This document shows, one piece after another, positions 18,309-64,000 of a stretch of DNA of 64,000 nucleotides. Numbering within the stretch: the stretch's first letter is position 1; each line of letters opens with the position of its first letter. The position numbers were made by a program, and so were the translations under genes. The stretch is from assembly GCF_000226095.1 (NCBI RefSeq), contig NC_016473.1:372001-436000 (forward strand). Direction: 5' to 3'. The notes below the pieces were generated by a model. The model was not told the origin of the DNA, ran no database searches, and saw only the letters and a program-made list of their open reading frames with translations. The stretch is from Thermothelomyces thermophilus ATCC 42464. Taxonomy: Eukaryota > Ascomycota > Sordariomycetes > Sordariales > Chaetomiaceae.

Positions 18309-21129
18309 TCAGCCGACCTCCATATTGTCAGAGACCGGAATTGGCATCGCCACCGTGATAGAGGGATCGTCGTCCCCCTCTGCTCTCCTGACGCCATCCG
18401 AAGAGGTCTTGTCGTTGTCGTTGTCATTGTCATTGCCGTCGTTGTTATTGTGGCTGTGGTTGTTGTGGTTGCTGTTGATATTGTTGTCGTTGTTGTCGTT
18501 GTTGTGGTGTTGGTGGTTGTGGTTGTTCACCTGATTTTCGCTCACACTTGACCCACTACCAGCGCAGAGTCTGTACTCGCCGTCTCCGAGTTCCTCGATG
18601 ATGCCTTCGTCTAGCGCCCATTTCGCTAGCAGCGGGTCGACTCCCATCCGACCGGCCTCGCCTTTCTCCATATGCCGCCCCACATGCTCTGTCCACTCGT
18701 CCCATGACCCTGGTCCCTCGAAGACGCTTTGACAGTCCGGTTTGGGGCAGGCTGACCGCTGAGGAGGTTTCCTCCGGGTGACGAGACAGGTCGTTTGCAT
18801 CTCCTTGACGTGGGCATCCCACTCGGCCTGCAGTTTACTGTCGCTCTTGGTTATGGCCTTCTTGATTGCAAATGGCGCGTGCATGCGGCGAAGGTGCTGC
18901 GTAAACAGGTCCTTGCGGTTAAACTCGTTGCCTTTGCCGTCGGCGCTGCTCTGCGGGCACGACGAGCACCGGTAGAACTGTAAGCACAGGTGCTGCGAAG
19001 AAATGTGCCGCTTCCACTCATTCTTGGACCCAAAGGTGCTGGTGCACCCGGCAAACGAGAAGGCACAGGGGAAAGGCCTCGTATGTGCAGCCGCGACGTG
19101 TTTGCGGAGCGACGAGGAATCCTTGAAGGGCGCATGACTGCAATGGTCACACCGCACCTCCTGCTTCGGCGTCTGCTTCTGGAGTGGTTTCCTGGCTTTC
19201 GTCTTCGCAGAGGGGGTGCTGTATTCGGCGCCGTAGAGGGGTCCGTCCAACCCGGTTACAACGCCGCTTGCCGGAGAATCAGGGTCGCCGATGTGACGGA
19301 CGGCGATACTGTCCCCTACCTGCGTAGCCTGGCGATCGAGCGTCGCTGGAGAGTCACCACCGATATGTCGGACATGGCTCAGTGCCTTCAATTGTTCCGC
19401 TGCCTCCTGCATCTCCGCCGAGTCTTCGACCTCATCCTTGGGACCTACCGGAGGGGTCTGTCCCGGGCTGGCATGGAGAGGTATGTTCGGGATAGAGGCT
19501 GTAACCGCCTGGTTGAGATAGGTATCCTGACGTCGAGCCGTCTCCTTCTGAACAGGGGCGCCATGACTTGAGGTCTCGTTGCGATGCATAGAGGGAGTGC
19601 GCTTGAGAGCGCGGCTGTCTTCCTCGTCCTTGATGCCAACCAAGCCTCTCGGAGGCGAGTTGACGAGTCGCTGATAGAGGTGAATCATGTTGTGGGAGCT
19701 GATGTAACCAAGGAAACAGCAAACCTTGTCATGCTGGACAATATTCCAGACATTGAGGGGCATGGAGATCAGCAGCATGGTCGGCGGTCCGAGGAACATG
19801 CCCTCAACGGCTATCTTGGACGTGGTGCTTGGCACGCTGTGGAGCCACTGATTGAAAAATGCCATGTCTGGACTCGCGTCGCCGACGAACGTCGTGCACA
19901 CCAACACCCTCTGCTCCTCCAAAGTCAGGTCGAGCACCTCATCTGGGTGGAGCGGGTGGTCTTCGGGCTTGGTTTTCCAGGCTCCTTGAGCGTCCGCATC
20001 AGCGGAGTGGGGGGGCGACTGGAGCTGGGCTGCCTTTGGGTCAAGCGGAACCAACACGATTCCCTGGCCCCTGGCCGGCGTGAGGGTAAAGAAAGCCGGT
20101 GACCTTTCGGGCGTGTGATTAGGCTTCGTAGATCCGTTGGATAGCCTGGCAAGCGCCTGCGTGCTGTCTTGCTGCCTCTGCTGGCAAAGATCGTCATAGA
20201 GCTTTTGCACGCTGAAGGGCCGACCCAGGAAGCTGAGTTTCTGAAGCGTCTCGGCCAACGCGGCCGTGAAGGAGCGGGGTCCGGGTTCCAACGCGCTCTG
20301 ATCGGGGCTATAGGCAGCGATTGCTTGCTTGGCACCGTGGCTGCCAGCCACAGGCGCGTCGCGGACGGCACACGAGTCGATCAGGAGCAGAATCTCCGAC
20401 TGGGCATCCTCAAACAAGCAGCGAACGCCATCCCACTTCAGCTTGGCCGCGTCATCGCGCGAATTGCTACGTTTGTCCGTCAGCACCAAAAAATGGGGCG
20501 AGAGACGCAGCCGGAAGTCACGGTATTGCACCTACCATGCCCAGTAGAGCTGATGGTCGGGGCCGACATATCCGTGGCCGGCGTAGTATATGATCAGAAG
20601 ATGGTCGGGGCGGGCATTGTCGAGGAAGGAAGCTATCCTGACCCCGAGCTTGACGCTGGGATTTGGGACGGTAGGGATAGCCCATTTGTCGGTGTGGTAG
20701 TGGTACCGCTCCTGGAAAACTCGCTCCAGGGCCAGCATGTCGGGTTCGACCGAAGTGTCCTCCTCCCACTGCAGCATCAACACCGACACGCTAGTATGCT
20801 TGGGTCTCAAGGTTTGTTGTTGGATGTGGATGGCCGCATCCTGGAGGTGACGTGCAAATGCCTCGAACTCATCGCGTTCTGGCAGCCGCGGAGCAGCTTC
20901 GGCGTGCGCGTAGTGCTGCGACGGTACCTGGAGGGGACGGGGTTAATAAGGCAAAACGAAACCGATCCCTAGAGCGAGTAGGCACTTGGGCCCGTCTACC
21001 TACTTGATCTTGCGAGAATGTCTGTGGTGGGGGCTGTGCCTGGGCTTGAGGTGTCGGAGGGAGCGCTGACACGGCGGGAGGGTCTGGGACCTTAGGGGCC
21101 AGCCTCCTCCGTTTCGAAGAGGGTTCCAT
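18309..21129 (-). CDS. Caspase-like domain fused to C2H2 zinc fingers
   Basis: This encodes an 891-residue two-module protein. Exons 21129-21004, 20927-20536 and 20466-18309 join across introns of 76 and 69 nt; the second junction rebuilds YWACNSRDDAAKLKW. An N-terminal basic patch (SSKRRRLAPK) looks like a nuclear signal. Residues about 85-210 resemble the caspase-like fold. One strand ends HLLIIYYAGHGYV with the catalytic-type His at about 160, and a second reads ILLLIDSCAV with the catalytic-type Cys at about 205, so both dyad residues are present. From about residue 610 come four C2H2-like fingers (CDHC..H..H, CAFSFAGC..H..H, CSSC..H..H and CPKPDC..H..H). The C-terminus is an Asn/His/Asp-rich tract. 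I recall similar fungal proteins annotated simply as C2H2 proteins. Protease activity and DNA binding are inferred from motifs only. A role in cell death or self/non-self response is speculation. Confidence 0.8.
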
Positions 21130-23682: not shown

Positions 23683-26282
23683 TCACTCGCCGGCCTCCGA
23701 AGGGCTCACCGGCTCACCCGCCAACCGTCGCTGTAAACGCAGGCCTGCCTCCATGGCCGAGCTCGCGATCTCCCAGTTGTCCATGCCCATCTGGAACATG
23801 CAGATGTTGAGCATGCCCCTCATGTAGCGGTCGTGCGGCTGTGCGGCCTTGCCGCCTCGCCGCCTCCTGGCACGAGGGGCAGCAGGATCCAGGTGAGCAC
23901 GCCCAGCAGGGATCGCCACGTCGACAGCGGCACGCGCCACGCCGTGGTCCAGAGGCGGAGGTACGCATCGGACATGACGACCCGGCTGAAGGCCCGGCGG
24001 TGCATAATGGCGCGGCTGTACAGGAGGGCGGCGAGACGGATGGCTTGGTAGATGTGGTCTGGAGGCAAGAGGAGGACGAGGCGGAAGAGGAGGGAGGCGG
24101 AGCCGCTGTCGGGTATTGTTCTTGCCTCAGGTCTGTCGGCATCTGCATCCGTGCCCAGGGCGGCTCCGGGTGGGTTTTCTGATGTTGGGACAGGGACAGG
24201 AACTGGGGAGATTGCACCTGTTTGGATATCTCCGCCACCATGGAGCCGTCGGCTCTGGGCGCCGAGCTCGCTTCTGGGGGACGTCGCGTGGCCGGCGAGT
24301 CTTCGGAGAGGCCCGAGATGCGCTCATGAATCCAAGCCGACGTGGCCTGTACCTTCTGGAGCTCCTTCGCCGAGGGCTTTGCCGGAAGCGCAAGGACCGC
24401 AGCGAGAAGAAAGCGCATGTCATCGAGAATGGAGGCAACGGCAGGGTGGATACGAAGGGCGTCGGCACATGACGAAAACCGCACAAGCGTGGGGATCAGG
24501 GGCGTATTGAGGGCTACACGGAGAGGGAAAGGTGAGCTGTCGCTGAACTCGAGTTCGGGCCCTCCTCGCAGGTACGGCGGGACTTCCAGAGACAGGGAAA
24601 TCGCAGCGTCGGCACTAGCGAGCCAGTTATATATTTTCACAACCAAGGTCTAGCGTGTAGGAACAAGGGCTCACGATATCGCAAGCTTGCTAATCAGGCC
24701 ATGTAGGCCGAGCATTCGAAATCCTCCGCGGCATTTGATCATATCCCGGAGTCCGCGCTGGTGAGCTCGCAGATCATCAGCGTTTCCCCAGAGCCTATAC
24801 TATCGTCAACTGCCTTGTTTTTTTTCCCTGTCGCGCAGGCTGTGAGTGGGGAGGAAAGGGGTAGCAATAGACTTCAGGCGGCCGAGCCCCTCTCCATTCC
24901 CGGGGCGGGCGCAGCCAGCATTGATCCTAAAGAAAGCACGCACCATTCGTTCAGGATGATCTGAAGCACTTCAGCAATCACTTCGTCAGTTGTGGGCATC
25001 CGTGACCTGATGTGTTCGTTCAGCAGCCTGAAGACATGGCCCTTGTGAGCCATCGCCACAGTTCTGTCGACGTGACCAGTGTCGGTGAGGAAGCAGGCAG
25101 CTGAGTAGATGGCCACGCGCAACAAGAGCTGAGAGTTGACACAGTATGGGACGTAATACTTGATATACGGGTTCGAGGGTTCTGGATTTCCGTCCAGCGA
25201 AGCCGTGAACTTGGACAGAAAGTTGGTGACTGTGGTACCGGCTTGCGTCAGAGAGGTGTTCAAAGGAGCAGATGCAAAGGGTAGCTGGGCCAGACTTACA
25301 AACCATCAAGAGCTCCTGGTTTGGCATGGTCTGTGCTGACAGCGTCCGACCGAGCCCCTGAACCGGATCGGAAATAGGCCAGCTCAAGCTGTCCGGCTCC
25401 GTGAAGACAGCCGGCACCAGTATCCACGCACTTATTTCTTGCCCCTGCGACCAGCTTGTGCTGCTCCAGCCATCTTGAGCCGATCGATAAGCTCGGAGGG
25501 TCCTGATGGCATGGTGAACTTCGGCGGAGTGCGATGTACATGTACAACCGTCTTGGCAAGCCGTGATGGACATGGAGAGACTCTGCTGGTCGGTGCTCCA
25601 GTAATATTGCCCGGCCAGAGCTGGCGCGGAACTTGAAGGCTGCTCGGGTAGACAAAGTGTGGGCCAGCCTGACAGGTTGCTGCCCGCATCACCATGGCTG
25701 TGTTGCTGGTCCCAGGACGACACGAACGGAAAGATCTCGAGGGGGAAACGCTATTGAGGGTCTCCGACATTCGAGTTCTCGCTTCGGGTCGGGTTAGACG
25801 GAGATAAGGAGACGATAAAGGCCGACTGCTGTGGCAACGGTACACTGGCAGGGCGCCTGCTTCCTCCCTTGAAGATGAGCAAACCGTCTACTAACACCTA
25901 GCGTTCGGCTTACGTTGGGTGGTGGTAAGAGGCCGACGCACCTGTGGTTCTGCCTGTATTCACAGATTGGTTGCGGAAACCTCCTCGCGCAGTTGCTGCA
26001 CGGCTGGCCTTGGTTGCACTATGACAGATCAGCAGGGTGTTACTCTCTGGAACAGGCTGAGTATTGAGTTCCTTGCAGACCTGAACTTTGGAGTGTCTGT
26101 GATAAACATCTGGGTGCTTGTGGGGGAGATGGCGGTGGCGGCAGGGAAGGACACATCTAAGTGCATTCCAGACCATTGACAGAATGATTGATCGACGTTA
26201 CTTTTTGCTTCCTTCGCCTACATTCGCCGCACGACGTTGTCATCCGCTCTGCACGAGGAGGCCGTGGCACAGTAGTCTGCAT
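23683..26282 (-). pseudogene. Zn2Cys6 transcription factor (Fungal_trans_2 type), apparently frameshifted near its C-terminus
   Basis: A fungal zinc-cluster regulator whose DNA-binding domain is split by an intron. Exon 1 (26282-26202) encodes CGECRRRKQK. Exon 2 (26018-25942) continues CNQGQPCSNCARRFPQPICEY, together giving the canonical C-x2-C-x6-C-x5-C-x2-C-x8-C. Exon 3 starts at 25828. The path between about 25450 and 25400 changes frame and I could not resolve it. Further exons are (end)-25300, 25241-24944, 24794-24675, 24614-24218 and 24125-23683. They encode the PF11951-like body: YYVPYCVNSQLLLRVAIY, GHVDRTVAMAHKGH, LRAHQRGLRDMIKCRGG and AAISLSLEVPPYLRGG. In the last exon the family-like frame is broken between TWILLPLVPG and PHDRYMRGMLN. 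Two abutting copies of an 8-bp unit (plus strand GCCGCCTC, 23851-23866) account for the shift. Read as is, the protein stops near 23820, losing about 45 residues. It could be a pseudogene, a real truncated allele or a sequence error. Confidence 0.7.
23851..23866 (+). repeat. 8-bp perfect tandem duplication inside coding sequence
   Basis: Two copies of GCCGCCTC abut within the last exon of the Zn2Cys6 gene. Eight bases are not a multiple of three, and the duplication coincides with the change of reading frame. Confidence 0.85.
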
Positions 26283-27182: not shown

Positions 27183-27204
27183 GTACATACATACATACAT
27201 ACGT
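27183..27204 (+). repeat. ACAT tetranucleotide run
   Basis: About five tandem ACAT units end in a GTAC-containing flank. Similar GTACATAC patches recur in other spacers of this window. Confidence 0.8.
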
Positions 27205-28616
27205 ACTGTACACTAACACGTGCAGCACAACCTGGGCGGGAAGGACACACCACCTGCGGCGTGAAGGCCCCCAATGGAACGCCACTACCGATGATCTGCG
27301 CATTCGCACCACTGGCAGACTAAAGACCACATTGAAGGGAGGCAAGGTAAGGCTAACGTGTATTTCTCGCCTGCCTCTGCACTAGCCGCTACGCTAGTGT
27401 ATGTAAGCACTTAATATGCAAAGTGTCGGAGGCAATGCATGTGCGTTCCGTACGCTGCGCGGCGAGTGGCATGGGCCCGCTCGGCTGGTAACCCACCCGA
27501 GACGCCTGACAATAGCTGCCCTGGTGTATATCCTGCAGATGCCCGGGGGCCAGACTATCGGAAAGAAAGCAAATTGGGATGGGAAGAATGGGTGGAGGGC
27601 CAAGATGGATGGGAGCATTGAATAACCTACCCGCTCTCCTTAACCCTCTCCCACGGCGTTCTAGGCATGAACAAAACAGGATGCAGCGCGCAGCCTATGA
27701 AAACTAAGAACAGGGAATCGGCCAAAGAGTATGGGAAGATGCTGTCGGTGGTAGGAGCCAATGGGCTATGGATATGGATGGCACTTTCGCAAGATCCCAA
27801 CGCTCCGTCCCACCATCCGATGCTACACTTCATCAGGCTCGCGGCTGCTGCAGCTGGACTGAGCCAGAACCGCTTGGCCGTGGGCCGCAGTAGCATAAGT
27901 TTAGACCATTGCAGACTTGCATGACTACTATCCAACTCGGACACCCGACTGCAGCTGTACCCCGGTTGCCGATCTAGGGCCGGCATGACTCTTTTTTCGT
28001 TCTGGGAGTCTCGATTGCAAACGTTTCCTCTTCTGGTCGGGCCAAAGTCGTTACGAAACCGTCAACTGGAGAGCTTTCCAATAGTAGGTGTTTACCATGC
28101 GCCGGTGAAGCGGGCAGGTTTTGCTCCCTCCCTCGTCATGGACCGCGTTTGTTGAAATAAAGTTGCGGACTTGGCCGGGCTGCTACTGGGAATGGCACCG
28201 ACAGGCTGGGCCATGCTGGGTTTAGTGGGAAGCTTATCGGGAACAGGTCCCACCCACAGGGGTGGGGTCGGTGGGCGATTGGCTGCCCTGAGCGGGCATG
28301 CTTCCAGGGCCTCGAGGTCTAGATCAGTCAATGAGACCACGAGCATTCTGGAGGGCAGTGTGCTGAAGAAAAATTGAAACAAAGCAAAGGGAGTTCGGTT
28401 ACACATGTAACTAGACCCAAGCTGGCTGGCCCAATGTGTCACGCAACTTGGGGGTCAAGTGAGTCTATTATGTATGTATGTATGTAGTACGGATTACTCC
28501 GGTCCGCTGCCTACACTACATTACAAGCAATTTCAATTGCCATCAGAGCATAACGTCACACAGACGACCACTGGACTCAAGGGCCTGAGCTGCTCTGCCT
28601 GGTATCCATTCAACAA

Positions 28617-28642
28617 AACACACACACACACACACACACACA
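28617..28642 (+). repeat. (CA)n microsatellite
   Basis: A near-perfect run of about twelve CA units in intergenic DNA. Confidence 0.9.
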
Positions 28643-28680
28643 TATCACCCAAGAGATCGTGTCCCCAAAACTCCGTACTC

Positions 28681-28951: not shown

Positions 28952-31033
28952 CTAATTCGAGCTGTAGTAGTATGGCTTTCTCGCCATATTGACCGCCGGC
29001 GGTGCGTCCTCGTCGAGAGGATAAGGCAACACAGGGGCAGACGCTCGGCCATGGCCAGCCTGGATCTCCGGGAGCGGTGTTTTTGGGGGTAGCGGGGGTG
29101 GTACCGACGGCGGCCGCACCCGCAACGGCGCGGGCTGCATCAGCGGATCATCGTATCGCCTGGGGTAGTCGTCCGGCCCCGCGATCGCGATCTTATCCGC
29201 GCCCGTGGCGATCCGGTATTGCGCCGGCGTCGGGGCACTGACCACTAGGCGGTCCGAGTCCTCGGCCGCGCCGTCCGCAAAGTGGCTCGGTGCTGCTGGC
29301 GGGTGGCCGCCAGAGGGGGGCGCGGGCGGATACGGCAGCTGGTTCGGCTGGGGTGATTGTCGTGGCGGCTCGCAAGAGCTCCTCGGAGAAGGCGTAGATC
29401 CCCGCACTGGCAATATATCGTGGCCCGAGTCGTACGACTGTCGGCTTGGCGAGGCTGGGGTTGGGGCGCGAGCGGGCACGGGGGGAATGTCTCCCGGCAG
29501 CTCCGCCGCCAGGGGCAGCGAGATCTGGGGGACTTTTTGCGCCGCCTCCGGGCTGGCCTGGCTGAGGCGCTCCCAGCGCTGCTTTGCAAAGTGGATCTTG
29601 GCCAACTTTGCCGACGCGCTCTGGACCATCTTCTGCTCTTCCTCCCTAGCCAGATACCTCCTGGTATTCGTGCTGATGTCCGCCAGCCGGTTCCACTCAT
29701 TCATGCCAAACTCGCCGACACCGACCTCGACATTCCAGCGGTAGTAGTTCTCGATGTTGACGCCCCGCTTCGACAGGTGTTCCCTCTTCATCTGCTCGTG
29801 GATCTTCTCGCAACCCTCAATCTTTGCGATCAGCTTCCTCCGCGCCTCGGCAAACTCGCCGAGAAAGCCCTCGTACCACAGCGCCGAATTTGCGTCGCTA
29901 CCCCTTGGTCGCTTCCCGGTGCCCACGCTGACGAAGACGCCAACCTCCCGGCCCGGCCACTCGTTGACGACCGCCTCGTCGAGTGCTGTTATGGACGGGT
30001 TAAACGTGCCCGCACCATCGTCGTGAAACACGGACTGCCCAATCTGGATGGGCTTGAACGCGAGGCCGATGGCGCAAGTCGCACGTCCGGCTTCCCAGAT
30101 CTTACAGTCGAACTCGGGGGCCGGCTCCCGCCTGGAATCGTAAGAGCGGAGCATGGCCGGTGCCCCACCTTTCGGGGTGCCCTTGTAAACGGCCGTCACG
30201 GCACTGGGGAATCAAGGGGGTTAGCCTACGCAGACCTACTTGAGAGTAAGGTCGCCGTCAAACTGCCGGCGCAAAGTGAAACTCACGTCTTGGTTCGATT
30301 TTCCCGCTCGTCATACAGGCGAGCATTTGGGTTGCCATTGCGGGAAAACACCGGTCTCGCGGCCTGCGCGCTGGGGCTCCGCGCGCTGAAGCTCAAGACG
30401 CTGGCGTTGCTGGCGTGCCGCCTAGGGTATGCTGCGCTCGAGCGGGAGACCGGGCTCAGCGAATCATATGTGCTCCCCACATCGGAGCCATCATTTCCCT
30501 CCTTTTCGTAGACGGTGTGCTCCCGGACACACTCCTTGATCGCCTCCTCCAGCTTTGTCGCCTTGAACAGGGTCGATCGGTAGGGGATGCCGGCGATGGT
30601 CTTGTCGGTTTCGAAGACCATGCGGGTGAGGCGGACGTATAACTCCTTGCATGTTTCGATATCGAGGCGCAACCGGCCCAGCATGAGGGCAATTAGGCCG
30701 CCAGTACCGGTGCCGACAATGAGGTCGAAGTGGTCGCATGGTTTGGGGATCTCGGATCGTCGCGGTGCCCGGCCTTCGATTTCGACAAACGTTCGGTGCA
30801 TGAGCTCCTGGAGGATTAGAAACATGGAGTAGCCGCGCACGCCTCCTCCATCTGGGCGAAGGGAGTCAGCAAGCCTCTCGCCAACGCTGCGTACGGGGGG
30901 AAGGGAACTGGCCGTGCTTGTTGCGCCGGGGGGGGGGGGGGGGGGAAGAGGACATACCAAGCGACAGGATGCGCAGAGGCGGCCCTTTTGTTGTGTCCTT
31001 GCGCTTCAACCCGTTGAAGTCCATGTCAGTCAT
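28952..31033 (-). CDS. Patatin-like phospholipase family protein with Gly in place of the nucleophilic Ser
   Basis: Three exons (31033-30958, 30851-30287, 30203-28952) give 630 residues in phase. The N-terminal patatin domain begins with LRILSLDGGGVRGYSMF, where DGGGVRG supplies the oxyanion-hole loop and spans intron 1. The nucleophile elbow normally reads GxSxG, but here it is FDLIVGTGTGGLIALMLG, so the catalytic serine position is glycine (codon GGT at about 30694). The catalytic-Asp motif DGAGTFNPS is present near 30000. The region after (YYRWNVEVGVGEFGMNEW) fits fungal patatin proteins. The C-terminal 170 residues are Pro/Ser/Arg-rich and disordered. I recall related fungal proteins with the same GTGTGG, so this may be a conserved non-hydrolytic subfamily. 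Lipase activity should not be assumed. The gene is divergent from the HAM1-like gene, 1.35 kb away. Confidence 0.85.
30928..30945 (+). repeat. Poly-G run of 18 inside an intron
   Basis: Eighteen G residues (C on the coding strand) lie in the first intron of the patatin-like gene, just after the donor. Its length does not affect the reading frame if splicing is intact. Confidence 0.9.
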
Positions 31034-56795: not shown

Positions 56796-59700
56796 CTATT
56801 CGGACTCGGGCATCCGGCGAGGATGGGACACGCTGGGCTTCTTCCTCCGGCTGAACACCTTGGAGATGCCGCTCGCCTCATCCCGCCCCGCCGTCTCCGA
56901 AAAGTCGCTCGCCATAGGAGTCGTGCCGACGGGCGGCGCCGATTGTTTTAGAAACTCGGCTAGGTCTGACGTTGTCCTAGTAGGAACCGAAATCGCCTCG
57001 CGCGGCTCAAACTTCTTCATCGGCACCCGGCCTCTTACGGGGCCCGGGCCACCGCCACCCATCATCGCTGCCGCCTTGGCGGAATCTCCATTCGAGTTCT
57101 CGTGCGTGTTCGCTGACCCAGGAATGTTCACTTGGATCGGTATGTGGCCGGCCTTTGGCGCACTTGCCCGACCGTTGGCGGACCTAGTCTCTGGAACTTT
57201 GGAGGCCGCAGAAACGGTTGAGCCTGCTGCGCTCGATTGCGCGCTATCCCGTCTCGTAAACCTGGCCATCAAGCTTGATGTGCTGGCCTTCTTCCTTGGC
57301 TGCATCGCGTTCCGTGTCTGTGAGATGTTGAAGGGCTGCACAGGAGGCTCCGGTGGCGGGGCGTAATTGTTCAAGAAGTCGATAAGGCTCTCCTCCTGGG
57401 TCTGTGCTTTCTTGGGGGGCAATGGCGTGAACTCGTCATCGTCTTCCAACTCATCGCTCAGGTCGATGGCGTAGGGGTCACGGACACGACGAGTCTTGCG
57501 CTTCGGCATCGGCATGTCAACATCCCCCGCATCCGATGGCAGGGGCTTGTTCTTGGCGACCAGAGCACTGCGGGAGTTGATGGATGACTGTACCGAGGGT
57601 GGCACCGAGGAGTCGGTGGCGTTCGTCGAAGCCTGGCTATCAGCGAGCTCGGCGTCCCGGAGTTGGGCGTCCACAGCTCTCCCCCCAACAGCAGCGGACA
57701 GCTGGTCCGAGTCCATCGTGGTCCGGAACGGAGCAACAGATCTCGGGATACGCGGGTTACCAGCGCTGCTCGGTGGCCCGCGCCGGATGAAATCGATCAA
57801 GTCAGAATTGTCGTCCTTGTGATCGACGACAGCACCGCGAGGCTGCAGTCTCGGCCGGTTGGGGTTGCTAGTCGCGGAAGCCAGGCTGGTGGTCCCGACA
57901 TCCCCGTTCGAGATCGAACCTTGATTACGCCGTCTCCCTGATCCCGATGATCCATTGGCATTGGCATTGGCGGAAGCGGCGCGAGCGTCAGCAGGGCCCG
58001 TTGAGCGGATAAACTCGGCGAATTCGGCAAGAGATTCACGCTCCAGTCTCGCATCTCTCGCTTGAGGCCCGTTGGTGGCACGAGGCTTCGAAGGCACCGG
58101 GGGGATGGAACGCGGGACGACACCGTTATGTTTGGCCGGGGAGAGGGCAAAGCTTCGGCTGGGGTGATGCCCATCGGTGACGGAATGGGACCCGGATCCT
58201 GACGAACGAGGCGCTGATGACGGCGATTTCGCGTCGTTTCGAGGAACCGACGACGAGGGGGAGCGGGAACCGTTCCGGCAGGCTTCTTCGCTCTTCCGTG
58301 TCTTAATCGACACAACTGGGCTTGCAGCTGTGGCGGGTCGCCCCGACTGACCCTGCGACTGCGTTTCGCTCGTTAGACAAAGCTGTGGCACGGCACGATG
58401 TTGTGTATGTGCAAGAGAGCGCTATCTGCTTACCTCGAGATCACGCATACTCTCGGGAGTAAGCGTGTACTGGATCGTCTGGTCGCTCTGGATGAGTTCC
58501 TCGAAATTCCGCACAACATCGATACGAGATTGCACTTGCTCCTCTGATGTCTGGACCGTCTTGAGCTTCGTCGACGAGGGGGACTCGGCAGCGGTTTGCT
58601 GCCGGCCTCGTCCCGCCGACGGCTCGCGGGGCCGGGAGGAGGAGGACCCTTGAGACGGACTGCGGTTACGAGTACGCTCCACCGACACCTGGCCGATAGC
58701 TGCTGGCTGGCGCAAGGCCGACGTATTCGCAACTGCTTGCCTTCCGGCGCTTCGCTCGGGAACGGCAGGGGGGTTGGAGGTGGAAGGAGAGCGATACCGT
58801 CGGCCGCCGGTTTGGGATGGCCCTGCGGCTTCTCTCCCCTCCGGCAGCACCGGCATAGACTCGATGAAGAAGGTGCCACTCGTCGTCGATGCGGTAGACA
58901 CCGGCGAGGACGTCGCGGGCAGTACGACGTTTTTGATGACGGGTTTTGGGGGCGTCGAAGGTTCCGGGACGGTGGGCAGGCTAGTTCCTGCGTGAGCAGG
59001 AGCAGGGGGAGTTACGGGTGTCACCGGTGAGACGGTATAGTCCCGGTCGGCCGGCTCGCCGCTCTCGGAAATAGAGACGCTCGACGCCAGTCCAGACGAC
59101 CTGGTACCGTGGCTGATAGCTGGCCTGCCAACTGAGCTGCTACCAACAGACTGTTCCTGCCGGTCCTCTGAAAGCGGAGGAGTGACCGTGCGGTTGGCAC
59201 TGGATGGGCTAGCATGCCGGGCTGACTCGGTGACAGCCACCGAGTTGCGCCGCGAACCTACCACCGGGCTGCGCGGACTGGTCACTTCGATTAGCCGCGC
59301 AGAGTGGATGCTTGGCGTTCGAATCGGCAGGTTCGTGTTGATAGACGCAGGCTTTCCCGGTTCCGAGGATGTTGTGGACGGGGTTCGGCCCAAGATCGAA
59401 ACCCTCGAGGATCTGACGATTCTTGGCTCCTCAATGGACACTTCGTCGTCGTCATCATCATCTTTGATCTCATCTTTGAGCTCCTCTCCACCAGGGGCGA
59501 CGCCAGAGTCGGCGGCTTGGGAGGTTTCGACGGCCTGGACTTGCTCTGCTTCTTCTGCGGCATTCTGCGATAGGGTACGGGTCGAACGGCTGGCCTGAGC
59601 CGGGGAATCCTGCATCTCGGCCGGCACATCCGGCCGAGGTTCCGCGGGGATGCTGAAACGGGGTCGGGCGGGCGCTGGGAGTGTGCTCGAGCGTCTCCGA

Positions 59701-61037
59701 GTGATCTGGTGCTGAGACGAAGCGGTCGACAGCGGGCCCGGCGCCTCACGCAGCGGCATCGATATCATGCTCTTCGGACGGGTTGGCGTCCTTTCCTTCT
59801 CCGCGTCGCCGTCCTCTTCTCTTTCGTGACGGTAAAAGGCAAGACCAGGGACCTCAATTTCGGCAATGTCGTCTGGGCCTAGCGGCAAGGGAATGCTGGC
59901 AGCAACGAGATATTCTTCCAGAGGCTGCGAGGTATTCGCGCCTTGATCGCGATAATCAGCCGGGTCCTCCTTGCTCGGCGGCGCACCGGGCTCGGCGTCG
60001 GGCTCAGGGACGGTGGCTGGGACGGCGAACTCGGCAACGCTGCCAGACGAGCGCAAATGACCAGACGACGAGTGCAAGGAGTCCTTGGAATAGGACCTAT
60101 TCAGGCGATCTGTGGAGCTAATGGCGGGCGACCTGATCTTTTTCTTCCACGAGCGCCACAGCCGGCCCAGGGTACGGTCCAGCGCGACTCGCTCCATGTC
60201 GAGGTCCTCGATCACGACCTTATCGGCGACGCCGGTCGGGCTCCGGGCGCCTTCCTTGAGCTCCTTCTCGTACTTTGCGCGTATGCGATGGTATGCGGCT
60301 TGGCCGGCGACGATCAGTGCCTGCTCGCCCATGAACTCCAGGATCGACGTCAGGAAGATTGCGACGGCGGGCGAGACGGACTCGGATAGCTTGTCGTCTG
60401 GTCCAGAGGCAAGGTGGCCCTGTTCCATGTAGTAGTCCTCGTCCTCTTCTTCCATGTCGCCCAGTGATGAGTAGACCATGCAGCGAAGGCGCGTCCTCTT
60501 CCAGGCCAGCTCCAGATCCCATCCCGTGGGCGACACAGCGTCGGCCGTCTGCGGTTGGGCGCCATCTTGGCCATCCTCGCCGAGATACTCTCGCAATTCC
60601 TCGTCCGCTTGGTTGATAGCATCTTTGGCGAGCTTCGGTTTCAGCACCTCGGTCACGGCGGGTCGCAGGGCGGAGAGGGCGGTGGAGCGCGAAACGGAGA
60701 GGAAGTTGAAGAGCAGCTGGTCGAGGAAGCTGTTGACCAACTGCAGCGCGGTGGGCGACACGGTAGCAGCCTCGCCCGGAGGTTCGATACCATGCTGGTC
60801 GTACCACGCTTCGGCATGGCTGTCGTAGTCGTTGGTGACGATCTGCGAGGCGGCCGAAGCGGCAATGAAGGCCGGTTCAGGCGACACAGCCAGTGGAGGC
60901 GTCATCAGACTGTGCGCGACGGTCGACGGTCGGTCGCTGGAGATACTCTGTGTCCTCGACCGCGATGTTATCCTCGGTGGGGGAGAGGCCATCCCCGAGG
61001 ATGGCCGGGACACAGCCGCTTCTAATGGAGAAGCCAT
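56796..61037 (-). CDS. Large scaffold-like protein with repeated DLIDFIRRGPP-type motif
   Basis: A 1,388-residue protein from two exons (61037-58434 and 58358-56796); intron 58359-58432 has a CTAAC branch and keeps phase. Similar fungal proteins are often labelled Flo11-like, which says little. An ordered N-terminal part (about residues 85-290) is helical: ALQLVNSFLDQLLFNFLSVS, LRPAVTEVLKPKLAKDAINQ, then VAIFLTSILEFMGEQALIVA, resembling a histone-fold-like pair, and an RLWRSWKKKIRSP end. The rest is Ser/Pro/Thr-rich and disordered. Four copies of a short motif appear in the last third: ESLAEFAEFIRSTGP, SDLIDFIRRGPPS, ESLIDFLNNYAPPP and SDLAEFLKQSAPPVG. The C-terminus is basic (FSRRKKPSVSHPRR). 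I infer a protein-interaction hub; the cellular role is unknown. Confidence 0.75.
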
Positions 61038-64000
61038 GGGTGGCCGCTGCAAACAGGCACCAGGCCCGGCACAGTGCAGAATTCCCGGGATTGCGGGACG
61101 CGGCTGCTGTCCTTCTGTAGCGTGTCAACCAATTTGGGAAGCTGAGAGGTGCGGCAGGGGAGTGACAGCTCCGCGCATCCGATCTTCTCTGCGCTCGTGT
61201 TGGCGCACAGCGCGTGTCAAATGCGGGCGGCCGGCCGAGCGGTGCGCTGCGCGGGTTGCGGTGTGATGTGGTTTTCGGAAACCGCCTGGATGGTTGGGAG
61301 GAGAATTGGCAACGGAGACATGGATTGGACCGAGGGATTGGATGACCAGAATCGGTGATGCGAACCGGGCAGCGGTTCTTCGATCTCGCAGGGCCTGGGA
61401 TGTCCGGAAACTAATGCGGGCTGAATTCTCTGTTAGCCGGCTGGGTGCGATTCGCCGAGATGCGCAACCACGCGCAGCGGAAACTGAAACATTAAAGCGA
61501 TGCTGGAAATTCGAAACGTGACGGCCCCAATAGGAAGGCGGGTTGTACTGTTACAGTACACTAGCCCCCTCCCCGGAGCAGCGCGATGCGGTGCAGGTCT
61601 ACACACACAGGAGTGTATGTAATCCGTAATCCGTCGTACACAAGGAAACGGCCTCTCCGGGTTTCCAGACAACAAGTCGACTGCGCGAGAGTGGCACTTG
61701 CAAGACACAGCCCCGCCGTTGCACACCACTACAACCAAAGTAGTATACGCTGCAGTATGAAGATGGAGATCGGACGCGTATGTGTGCACGACTCGGATGG
61801 CAGGCCCCTCAGCACCGTGGTCTTAGGTTCAGCGGCACGGATGCAAGCGTGAGGCAATGGCCTTCCCCAGCGCCGTTGCCGGACGCCACGCTGAATGACC
61901 CACGAGTAGGTAGTTGAAGGACAGGCAAGCACTGGGCCGACCAAGTCACGAAAAAAGTGACACCAGGTCTCGGCGAGAAAAGAAAAAGCCATCTGCACGG
62001 CTCACTGTTGGCAGATTTCCACTCTGGCGGGCTGCCGACAGCAAGACACTTGAGAAAACGGGGTGACTGGAAGGGAAACACTTTGTACGCACCTGCCAGG
62101 TGAGAACTTGCTCGCGACAGAGCCACTGGCGCGGCCCAATAAACACCACTCGTGGACGACGTGATTGGATCTCGGCAGGTCCCCAAGTATGGTGTTGCCC
62201 AGACAGGAGAGGGCGGCGGCGCGTGCTGGAAACTTGCTGCGTCTGTTCCGGCGCACCGAGGCGAGTTGTCGGCACAGCAGTTTGCACGGATCTGATGCAA
62301 CTACAGGACTGCGTGTGCATACACCGACTTACTCGTGGAAAGCGAGCGGCGCATAAGGGCTGGAGAAGTCGGGGTGGTCAGCAGGATCCGAGCAGCTCAA
62401 GGCCATTCACCACCTCCTTTCACGCTGGGGCTCGGAGAGATATTTCGCTCCTGAAGTGCTCCCGGCACAGGCCCAGGTTCATGTTACATCTTCAACCCAG
62501 AGCGGTTTAGTGCGCAGAAAGGGGTTATTTCTGGGATGACTTCCCGGCTGTTTGAGTGGGCAATCCGTCCCATGTTCCATGCGACAGCCAAGGAGCGCTG
62601 TCTTGGCTTCAGAGACCCTGGAAATGTCCCGGAGGGTCTGCAAGGGCTAGGTTGCAAGGGATGTGGTCCGAGTGTGGGTTCACAGAATACTGGAATTGTT
62701 CTCTAGCGGGAATCCACTACACTACGAGTTGATACTCGGTAGAATGGGAGGATGAGATGCTTTCCGCTCGGGTTCTCAGATCTTCGAGGCCAGGATGAAC
62801 GCAGATGTGCCTGGGAGGCAAAGTTGCTAACCGACCCCTAATGCTGTGTCCTACTGTAACTACACAGTACGGAACACACTGAGACCACTATCTTCGAGCT
62901 CCTTGTCTCTGGAGCACTGCCGGCAAAGGTGGGATTGGATCGGTGCTCGAGCGGCGAAAAACGACTGGAATTCTCTCACGCCACACTCTATTCTATATGA
63001 CCCGAGTAAATTACCTAAGACGCGGGAGAGGACTGCACTCTGCGCGATAACTACAGAGTACTTGCAGTAGACTAAGTGCTCTTGTGATGTATAGTTATAC
63101 GTACTATACTAAGAGTGTACGTTTTACATATTATAAACACAGGAGAGTCCTTTACTACCGAGGTAAGGAAGGTAATGGAGTATATAATTATAGGTATACT
63201 TGGTAAATTCCTCTATCGTACGGAGTATACAGTCAGTAAAGTACTTACCCTGTAAGTAAGACACCTATAATACTAACCACTCGACCAGGCACCCTAAGAC
63301 CTGAAACACATCTAGGTAACCGACGCTAGCTACATTCGCAGTTCACTAGTGTCCGATAGTTCATTGTTCTATGCACAATAGTTACTCCATAATACTTACA
63401 GCTATGCTAATATTTAAAAGTTAATCGAAAGAAGCATTAGGTTGTTAGCCGACCCGGATGACTACGTAAAGGAGGCCGCTCTCTTCGCTTTTGCACGCTT
63501 GTTCCACCACGCTTCGAGTGAAAAAGCCTGCAGTGACTCCATAATACAAGTAAGGATCGGAGACCAACCTGGAAGCGTTGTCGGTGATTTCAAAGTTCAT
63601 GCAGTGGCACATGCGGGGAGTGAAACCATCTCAGGAACACTAGTCAAGCGATGAGATTCGACTGCGTAATGCCTGTTCCATCACCTGCAAGTCCACACTA
63701 CACAGTGTAATATTTTAGTTTCCGAGCGTCCATTGTGCGGTGCACTGGAAAGCAAGACTTTGCATTAGCAGTAGCCCTTGCCTAAGTTCCCCAAATAGCA
63801 TGGATTAATTGTGTGTGAGGAGGAGTATGAGTCTCAAGTGCCAAGTGCTCTCTCGAGGGATGGCAAAAGGCTTTGCAGCAACAAAGAGGACCACCTTAGC
63901 CAAGCTACCCGGCTGCGACTGTCCTCGGGCTCTAGACTCGCCGAGTCTCGACGAGGGGAGCAAAACAGCCTGGATGGAATGTTGATAACTAATCGCTCCC
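61038..64000. other. Right-hand intergenic region with AT-rich patch
   Basis: About 3 kb upstream of the 1,388-residue protein gene. The first 2 kb is balanced sequence without a supported gene. From about 63060 to 63430 the DNA becomes AT- and TA-rich, as RIP-affected DNA is, and includes a CGTACGGAGTATAC motif at 63216-63229. A short coding-like fragment follows (see 63442-63654). Confidence 0.5.
63442..63654 (+). pseudogene. Possible gene fragment of unknown origin
   Basis: A 70-codon open frame directly beside the AT-rich patch starts with a helical, coding-like stretch (LLADPDDYVKEAALFAFARL) reminiscent of HEAT/ARM-type repeats. It has no ATG at its head, no clear splice sites, and a weaker second half. 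It may be a remnant of a gene or element beyond the AT-rich patch. The family is not recognised. Confidence 0.25.

Follow-up and report, generated by a model that had tools for sequence, protein, structure and literature searches.

The gene described here lies on the reverse strand at positions 18309..21129 of the window, a term that denotes the whole stretch of 64,000 nucleotides that was analyzed. As modelled from the sequence, it comprises 891 codons distributed over three exons. Exon 1 (21004..21129, reverse strand) encodes residues 1-42, which are rich in Pro and Gln and include at residues 6-9 a basic cluster, KRRR, that could be a possible nuclear signal. It is followed by an intron of 76 bases (20928..21003, reverse strand; GTAGGT..CAG) and by exon 2 (20536..20927, reverse strand; residues 43-173), which encodes the first half of a caspase-like domain and contains the codon of His160 (20576-20574). 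The second intron, of 69 bases (20467..20535, reverse strand; GTAGGT..TAG), displays a branch-like CTGAC motif 12 bases before its end and is in frame save for one TAG. Exon 3 (18309..20466, reverse strand; residues 173-891) encodes Cys205 (codon 20372-20370), a middle region, four C2H2-like fingers and a tail.

All of exon 3 is contained in an uninterrupted open frame of 740 codons (20531-18309), the chance of which is about 7e-13 at the composition of the window. His160 is located in exon 2, outside this frame. Since this one frame carries both Cys205 and the fingers, no splice model is needed to join them, and the wrong joining of two genes is highly improbable. Both GT..AG introns and the three-exon translation agree with the coordinates, the length of 891 residues and the positions of His160 and Cys205 that had been given in an initial annotation, and the gene for this putative modular protease is intact. 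A search for a paralogue within the window found only the gene itself at E <= 1, Rfam and tRNA scans found no features, and scanning viral and genome contig collections for close relatives left none confirmed.

The neighbours that were identified are sulfate permease, family 31 glycosidase, patatin-like, HAM1-like and MARVEL genes, and none of them points to a function for the caspase-finger gene. Together with the shortness of the GT..AG introns, neighbours such as the HAM1-like gene make a fungal origin of the sequence most likely. The open reading frame of the patatin-like phospholipase (28955-31005, reverse strand; PF01734, E = 6e-10) lies some 8 kb away from the caspase-finger gene; patatin appears among the domains listed for fungal NLRs in an excerpt of PMC4986451. 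A 419-aa open reading frame beside the patatin-like one has no Pfam match, and those located between the caspase and patatin genes (23714-25723, reverse strand) have none at E <= 1. Further away, two open frames of 541 and 900 codons lie almost end to end at 56799-61124 on the reverse strand, again with no Pfam match, and are possibly one large uncharacterised gene. The segment 25723-28952, in which no open reading frame of at least 150 aa is listed, holds two short microsatellites, at 27185-27205 and 28615-28645 (CATA-type, AC-type). Positions 1-2000 are low in GC, at 0.34, when all other 2-kb steps lie at 0.51-0.64, and this stretch is possibly a repeat-induced-mutation region or another AT-rich island.

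The caspase-like domain covers approximately residues 85-315 (20040..20801, reverse strand) and spans intron 2. Its dyad consists of His160 in the motif YYAGHG and Cys205 in the motif LLIDSCAV. When the protein was shuffled 200000 times, both motifs at a plausible spacing never appeared, the patterns having been written around the observed motifs after the protein was known. The Gly next to the His (His160-Gly161) is present and the adjacent Asp is also kept. The two residues stand in the order of clan CD peptidases, the His behind strand 3 and the Cys behind strand 4. H-S-G after the catalytic Cys is usual in metacaspases. This feature of metacaspases and Peptidase_C14 proteins is absent here, the residues at Cys205 (Asp203-Ser204-Cys205) reading DSCAVRD, and the F-S-G that follows the Cys in most of the aligned bacterial caspases is missing as well. 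Shortly before helix 1 sits an acidic cluster formed by Glu97, Glu98 and Asp99.

When the spliced caspase region was compared with NCBIfam, a single family was matched at E <= 10, namely NF047832 ('caspase, EACC1-associated type'), with E = 7.3e-11 and 41.9 bits over positions 21-204 of the 211 of the model; the curated cut-off of this family, 140 bits, is missed. Exon 2 alone matches the same model at E = 1.4e-7. On these profile scores, the bacterial EACC1-associated caspases are the nearest family among the libraries searched, and the word nearest holds only within them, NCBIfam being a prokaryotic library. In Pfam, Peptidase_C14 (PF00656) matches the caspase region with 16.4 bits (E = 0.0075), missing its gathering cut-off of 21.4 bits, and is absent from the matches of the full protein at E <= 10. 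A sub-threshold match to Raptor_N is also observed (E = 0.021 with the domain, 0.009 with exon 2 by itself and 0.055 with the full protein), and no Pfam family reaches its cut-off anywhere in the full protein. The PADLOC 'caspase' model gives E = 0.027 with the caspase region. A search of PDB sequences with this region at E <= 10 returned three armadillo-repeat proteins only and no metacaspase.

We also compared the domain directly with bacterial sequences. With tblastn at E <= 10, the caspase region met 26 records among 72,556 plasmids. Of the 20 listed matches, the best of which has an E of 8e-3, sixteen bear the annotation 'caspase family protein', two bear other gene names and two have no gene under the match. 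The first of the otherwise-named matches, L005, begins in a caspase-like manner, with GHG and DCCFSG, and the second shows identical match figures. A near-reversed control query met two records, neither of them annotated as a caspase. A genome scan seeded by four of these bacterial proteins, the fungal one being left out, yielded 80 caspase loci, from 79 of which a profile was built (L046 was removed for a stop in the frame used). With this profile, the fungal domain obtains 32.5 bits, whereas the top score among 5000 shuffles is 16.8, and eight resamplings of 20 sequences gave 28.6-35.0 bits. Among the 615 open reading frames of the window, only exon 2 of the gene itself beat the best shuffle.

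In the joint alignment, His160 falls over a His in 79 of 79 bacterial caspases and Cys205 over a Cys in 78 of 79; the corresponding counts in pairwise alignments are 79 and 71 of 79. These bacterial counts stand only in part for conservation among fungal relatives. The top-scoring local alignment with the bacterial profile ends just before Cys205, so that the register of the Cys rests on the joint and pairwise alignments, on hhalign and on NF047832. Some selection is present in the bacterial set, which was found via matches of the fungal query, whereas the NF047832 match is free of it. The extra residues contributed by intron 2 land in a loop that is itself an insertion relative to the bacterial rows.

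A structure model of the domain was sought in two ways. From the sequence alone, AlphaFold gave no usable fold (pLDDT 33). The second model was based on an alignment, A6, of 20 bacterial caspases that had been selected for having their motifs in register. The query that was folded read through intron 2, that is with 23 extra residues, and MAFFT then misplaced Cys205 (75 bacterial rows; register off by one). The alignment subsets tried comprised 60 random, the full set, 79 pairwise and one of 38, then 225 subsets, followed by split fragments and by 500 subsets plus pairwise runs. Two sets of 20 sequences, in which His, Asp-Cys and Phe were aligned as in the spliced protein, were kept, and only A6 was folded.

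The A6 model (pLDDT 57.9, pTM 0.60) displays, as read by eye, the helix and strand order of caspases with strand 2 missing, and its residues 88-118, covering the intron-derived ones, are of low confidence. Among the best 50 of its 54 PDB structure matches at E <= 0.001 (E from 1.3e-5), 46 carry the name of a caspase, a metacaspase or MALT1 in their titles. The remaining four are CED-3 (one) and GSU0716 of Geobacter (three), and we take the latter to be caspase-like. The TM-scores normalised to the query range from 0.38 to 0.54 and the rmsd from 5.6 to 10.4 for these best 50 of 54. Because the alignment was chosen for motif register, the fold is partly imposed and the model serves as a consistency check in support of the other data; the caspase topology it suggests is of modest strength. 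The tblastn, bacterial profile, NF047832 and resampling statistics, as well as the dyad counts, are independent of this choice. Altogether, the NF047832 match, the bacterial profile, the dyad alignment and the structure matches bear out the initial proposal that both dyad motifs of a caspase-like fold are present, the structural part being carried by a modest model. We thus consider it very likely that the domain adopts a caspase fold with the His160/Cys205 dyad in place, and its sequence suggests that it is rather probably an active protease.

Behind the caspase-like domain comes a middle region (19620..19928, reverse strand; approximately residues 353-455) that appears rich in strands and helices by eye and matches no Pfam family at E <= 1. 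A basic linker rich in Lys and Arg, SAKTKARKPLQKQTPKQEVR (residues 592-611), directly precedes the first of the C2H2-like fingers. The four fingers are encoded on the reverse strand at 19083..19151 (residues 612-634), 18990..19067 (residues 640-665), 18879..18968 (residues 673-702) and 18672..18749 (residues 746-771). The third one has a long Cys-His spacing, with 20 residues from its second Cys to its first His. A tighter C2H2 pattern finds three fingers and a pattern widened to admit the third one finds four, both patterns having been written after the protein was seen; in 20000 shuffles of the whole protein, the widened pattern gave four matches in 0 and three in 3. The best Pfam matches at the fingers, zf-TRAF with 18.3 bits (E = 0.0039) and zf-C2H2_4 with 14.4 bits, are both below the cut-off of 27. 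Matches of the finger region to PDB sequences are weak (best E = 0.0041, for YY1), 22 of the 24 being named zinc-finger or transcription proteins and the other two laminarinases. Judged by sequence, the four fingers are degenerate C2H2-like. The joining of a caspase-like domain to four such fingers, as first described for this gene, is confirmed by the shared frame of exon 3 and by the four spacing matches.

The tail (18405..18548, reverse strand; approximately residues 813-860) is rich in Asn, His and Asp. It had been noted as an Asn/His-rich and possibly aggregation-prone extremity, and the tail itself is indeed found. It is encoded by an imperfect tandem repeat of the GTT type (18409-18527), so that its composition can be explained without an aggregation function and is, taken alone, poor evidence for aggregation. 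Strains are also likely to differ in length at this repeat.

The protein can be compared with several known systems. Like the EACC1-associated caspases (NF047832; 'System 4' in the excerpted text of PMC7159879), it has an N-terminal caspase with modules behind it, and it shows a significant profile match over almost the whole domain with aligned dyad positions. It differs from them by a score far under the curated cut-off, by the introns of its gene, by the C2H2 fingers that form its C-terminal module and by the lack of S-G after the Cys. The bacterial system is moreover defined by an adjacent gene for the single-TM EACC1 protein, the comparison made here being one of the caspase proteins. It is thought to work near the membrane, whereas the fungal basic cluster may point to the nucleus.

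With type I metacaspases (C14B), the fungal protein would share the fold, the order of the dyad, an Asp on L4 and, for some members, the presence of a zinc-finger motif (excerpts of PMC4357240 and PMC13304501). However, in proteins such as plant AtMC1 the zinc finger is N-terminal and of the LSD1 type, PF00656 is under its cut-off here, and metacaspases are missing from the PDB sequence matches at E <= 10. A parallel can also be drawn with the fungal CHAT proteases acting on gasdermin-like proteins, where a caspase-related protease is likewise found in a multi-domain fungal protein (excerpt of PMC10197012). Nevertheless, a CHAT profile scores the domain at 2.0 bits, under the shuffle scores (five best, 9.3-10.8), and the hhalign probability is 0.1 with this profile versus 95.0 with the EACC1-type one. 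The CHAT profile was made from 12 of 25 bacterial loci, seven having been dropped for stops in the assumed frame and six as weaker matches, and includes no fungal CHAT. Judged against bacterial CHAT sequences, membership in this family is rejected, and the CHAT affinity that had been suggested for a structural check gave no signal. Finally, the N-terminal caspase-like domain of Raptor resembles the first half of our domain weakly, with a match that is not over the cut-off, and we know of no Raptor with fingers of the C2H2-like kind seen here. By its sequence, the domain fits none of the families tested, be it through the metacaspase/C14 cut-off or the CHAT profile.

How could such a protein work? 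Our leading model, to which we assign a probability of roughly 0.35, is that it probably works as a protease directed to Arg/Lys and that it frees or controls its zinc-finger module. In TbMCA2 and MALT1, Asp211 and Asp462 respectively stand two residues before the catalytic Cys. According to an excerpt of PMC4357240, both are on L4, Asp211 in the potential S1 pocket of TbMCA2 and Asp462 in the S1 pocket of MALT1, and both are assigned to the P1 pocket of Arg/Lys-cutting enzymes. Asp203 occupies the same D-x-C position of metacaspases and MALT1, which would give a P1 preference for Arg or Lys and not Asp. From this position and from the acidic cluster formed by Glu97, Glu98 and Asp99, a specificity for Arg/Lys is thus to be expected rather than one for Asp.

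In the proposed sequence of events, the finger module would sense a partner or a nucleic acid, this sensing would cause caspase domains to assemble, and a cut within residues 592-611, the basic linker, or within the linker 456-600 would free the finger module or switch it off. We rank self-release or self-control of the fingers first because the layout is that of the EACC1 caspase proteins, in which the C-terminal domain behind an N-terminal caspase can be of up to 50 kinds. For these, autoproteolysis deploying the C-terminal domains has been suggested, as a prediction, in the excerpted text of PMC7159879, and the regulator released by proteolysis that had been envisaged for our protein would be the same idea. 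Self-release of the finger module in particular is put forward tentatively.

A second, doubtful explanation is that the protein is an effector protease of fungal cell death or non-self recognition, where the fingers act as the sensor and the caspase cuts a separate substrate, as CHAT and S8 proteases cut gasdermin-like proteins. Supporting this idea, protease-bearing sensors control gasdermin-like killers in fungi (excerpts of PMC10197012 and PMC12881547), and the nearest prokaryotic caspases that we found belong to predicted conflict systems (NF047832; excerpt of PMC7159879). On the other hand, the proteases named for fungal gasdermin systems in the excerpts of PMC10197012 and PMC12881547 are S8 or CHAT, and the domain here is not CHAT; nor does Pfam detect NACHT or NB-ARC domains or ANK/TPR/WD40 repeats in the caspase-finger protein. 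A two-gene unit of protease and gasdermin would place a gasdermin-like gene within about 10 kb. The 22 open reading frames of the window that were scanned contain no gasdermin Pfam match, which is weak evidence, as fungal gasdermins may escape Pfam and these open reading frames are not full gene models.

One could also assume that the domain is a non-proteolytic scaffold with a caspase fold, similar to that of Raptor, and that the fingers do the actual work. The sub-threshold match to Raptor_N and the lack of the S-G that commonly follows the Cys in the aligned sequences would agree with this proposal. We nonetheless consider it unlikely, as the protein retains His160 and Cys205 together with the neighbouring Gly and Asp, and the EACC1-type match is far stronger than that to Raptor_N. 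Less probable still is a nuclear sensor and caspase united in one protein, in which the C2H2 array would bind foreign or aberrant nucleic acid, from a mycovirus, a transposon or the nucleus of a fused stranger, and thereby switch on a caspase related to those of bacterial conflict systems. Finally, the protein could be a C2H2 regulator of the ordinary type whose N-terminal region is vestigial or unrelated, or two genes could have been misjoined. C2H2 proteins are very common in fungi and Pfam gives no family above its cut-off in the whole protein, but we disfavour this as highly improbable, since Cys205 and the fingers share one open frame and the match of the domain to a caspase family has an E of 7e-11.

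In Pezizomycotina genomes, comparable caspase-like domains and comparable finger modules are probably present in numerous proteins. In the open-access literature we found no description of a fungal caspase domain joined to C2H2 fingers, which is no proof of absence, most subscription papers being outside this scope; a caspase domain-containing protease of Sclerotinia is named with no link to fingers in an excerpt of PMC5372324. If the dyad is active, the gene would provide a fungal caspase-fold protease that is outside the families tested and whose closest match, among those that can be detected, comes from bacterial conflict systems. Such a gene would then offer, in a eukaryote, a single-gene test of the proposed bacterial design, in which a constant caspase is associated with a variable C-terminal module that is self-cleaved, and would also test how zinc fingers could control a caspase.
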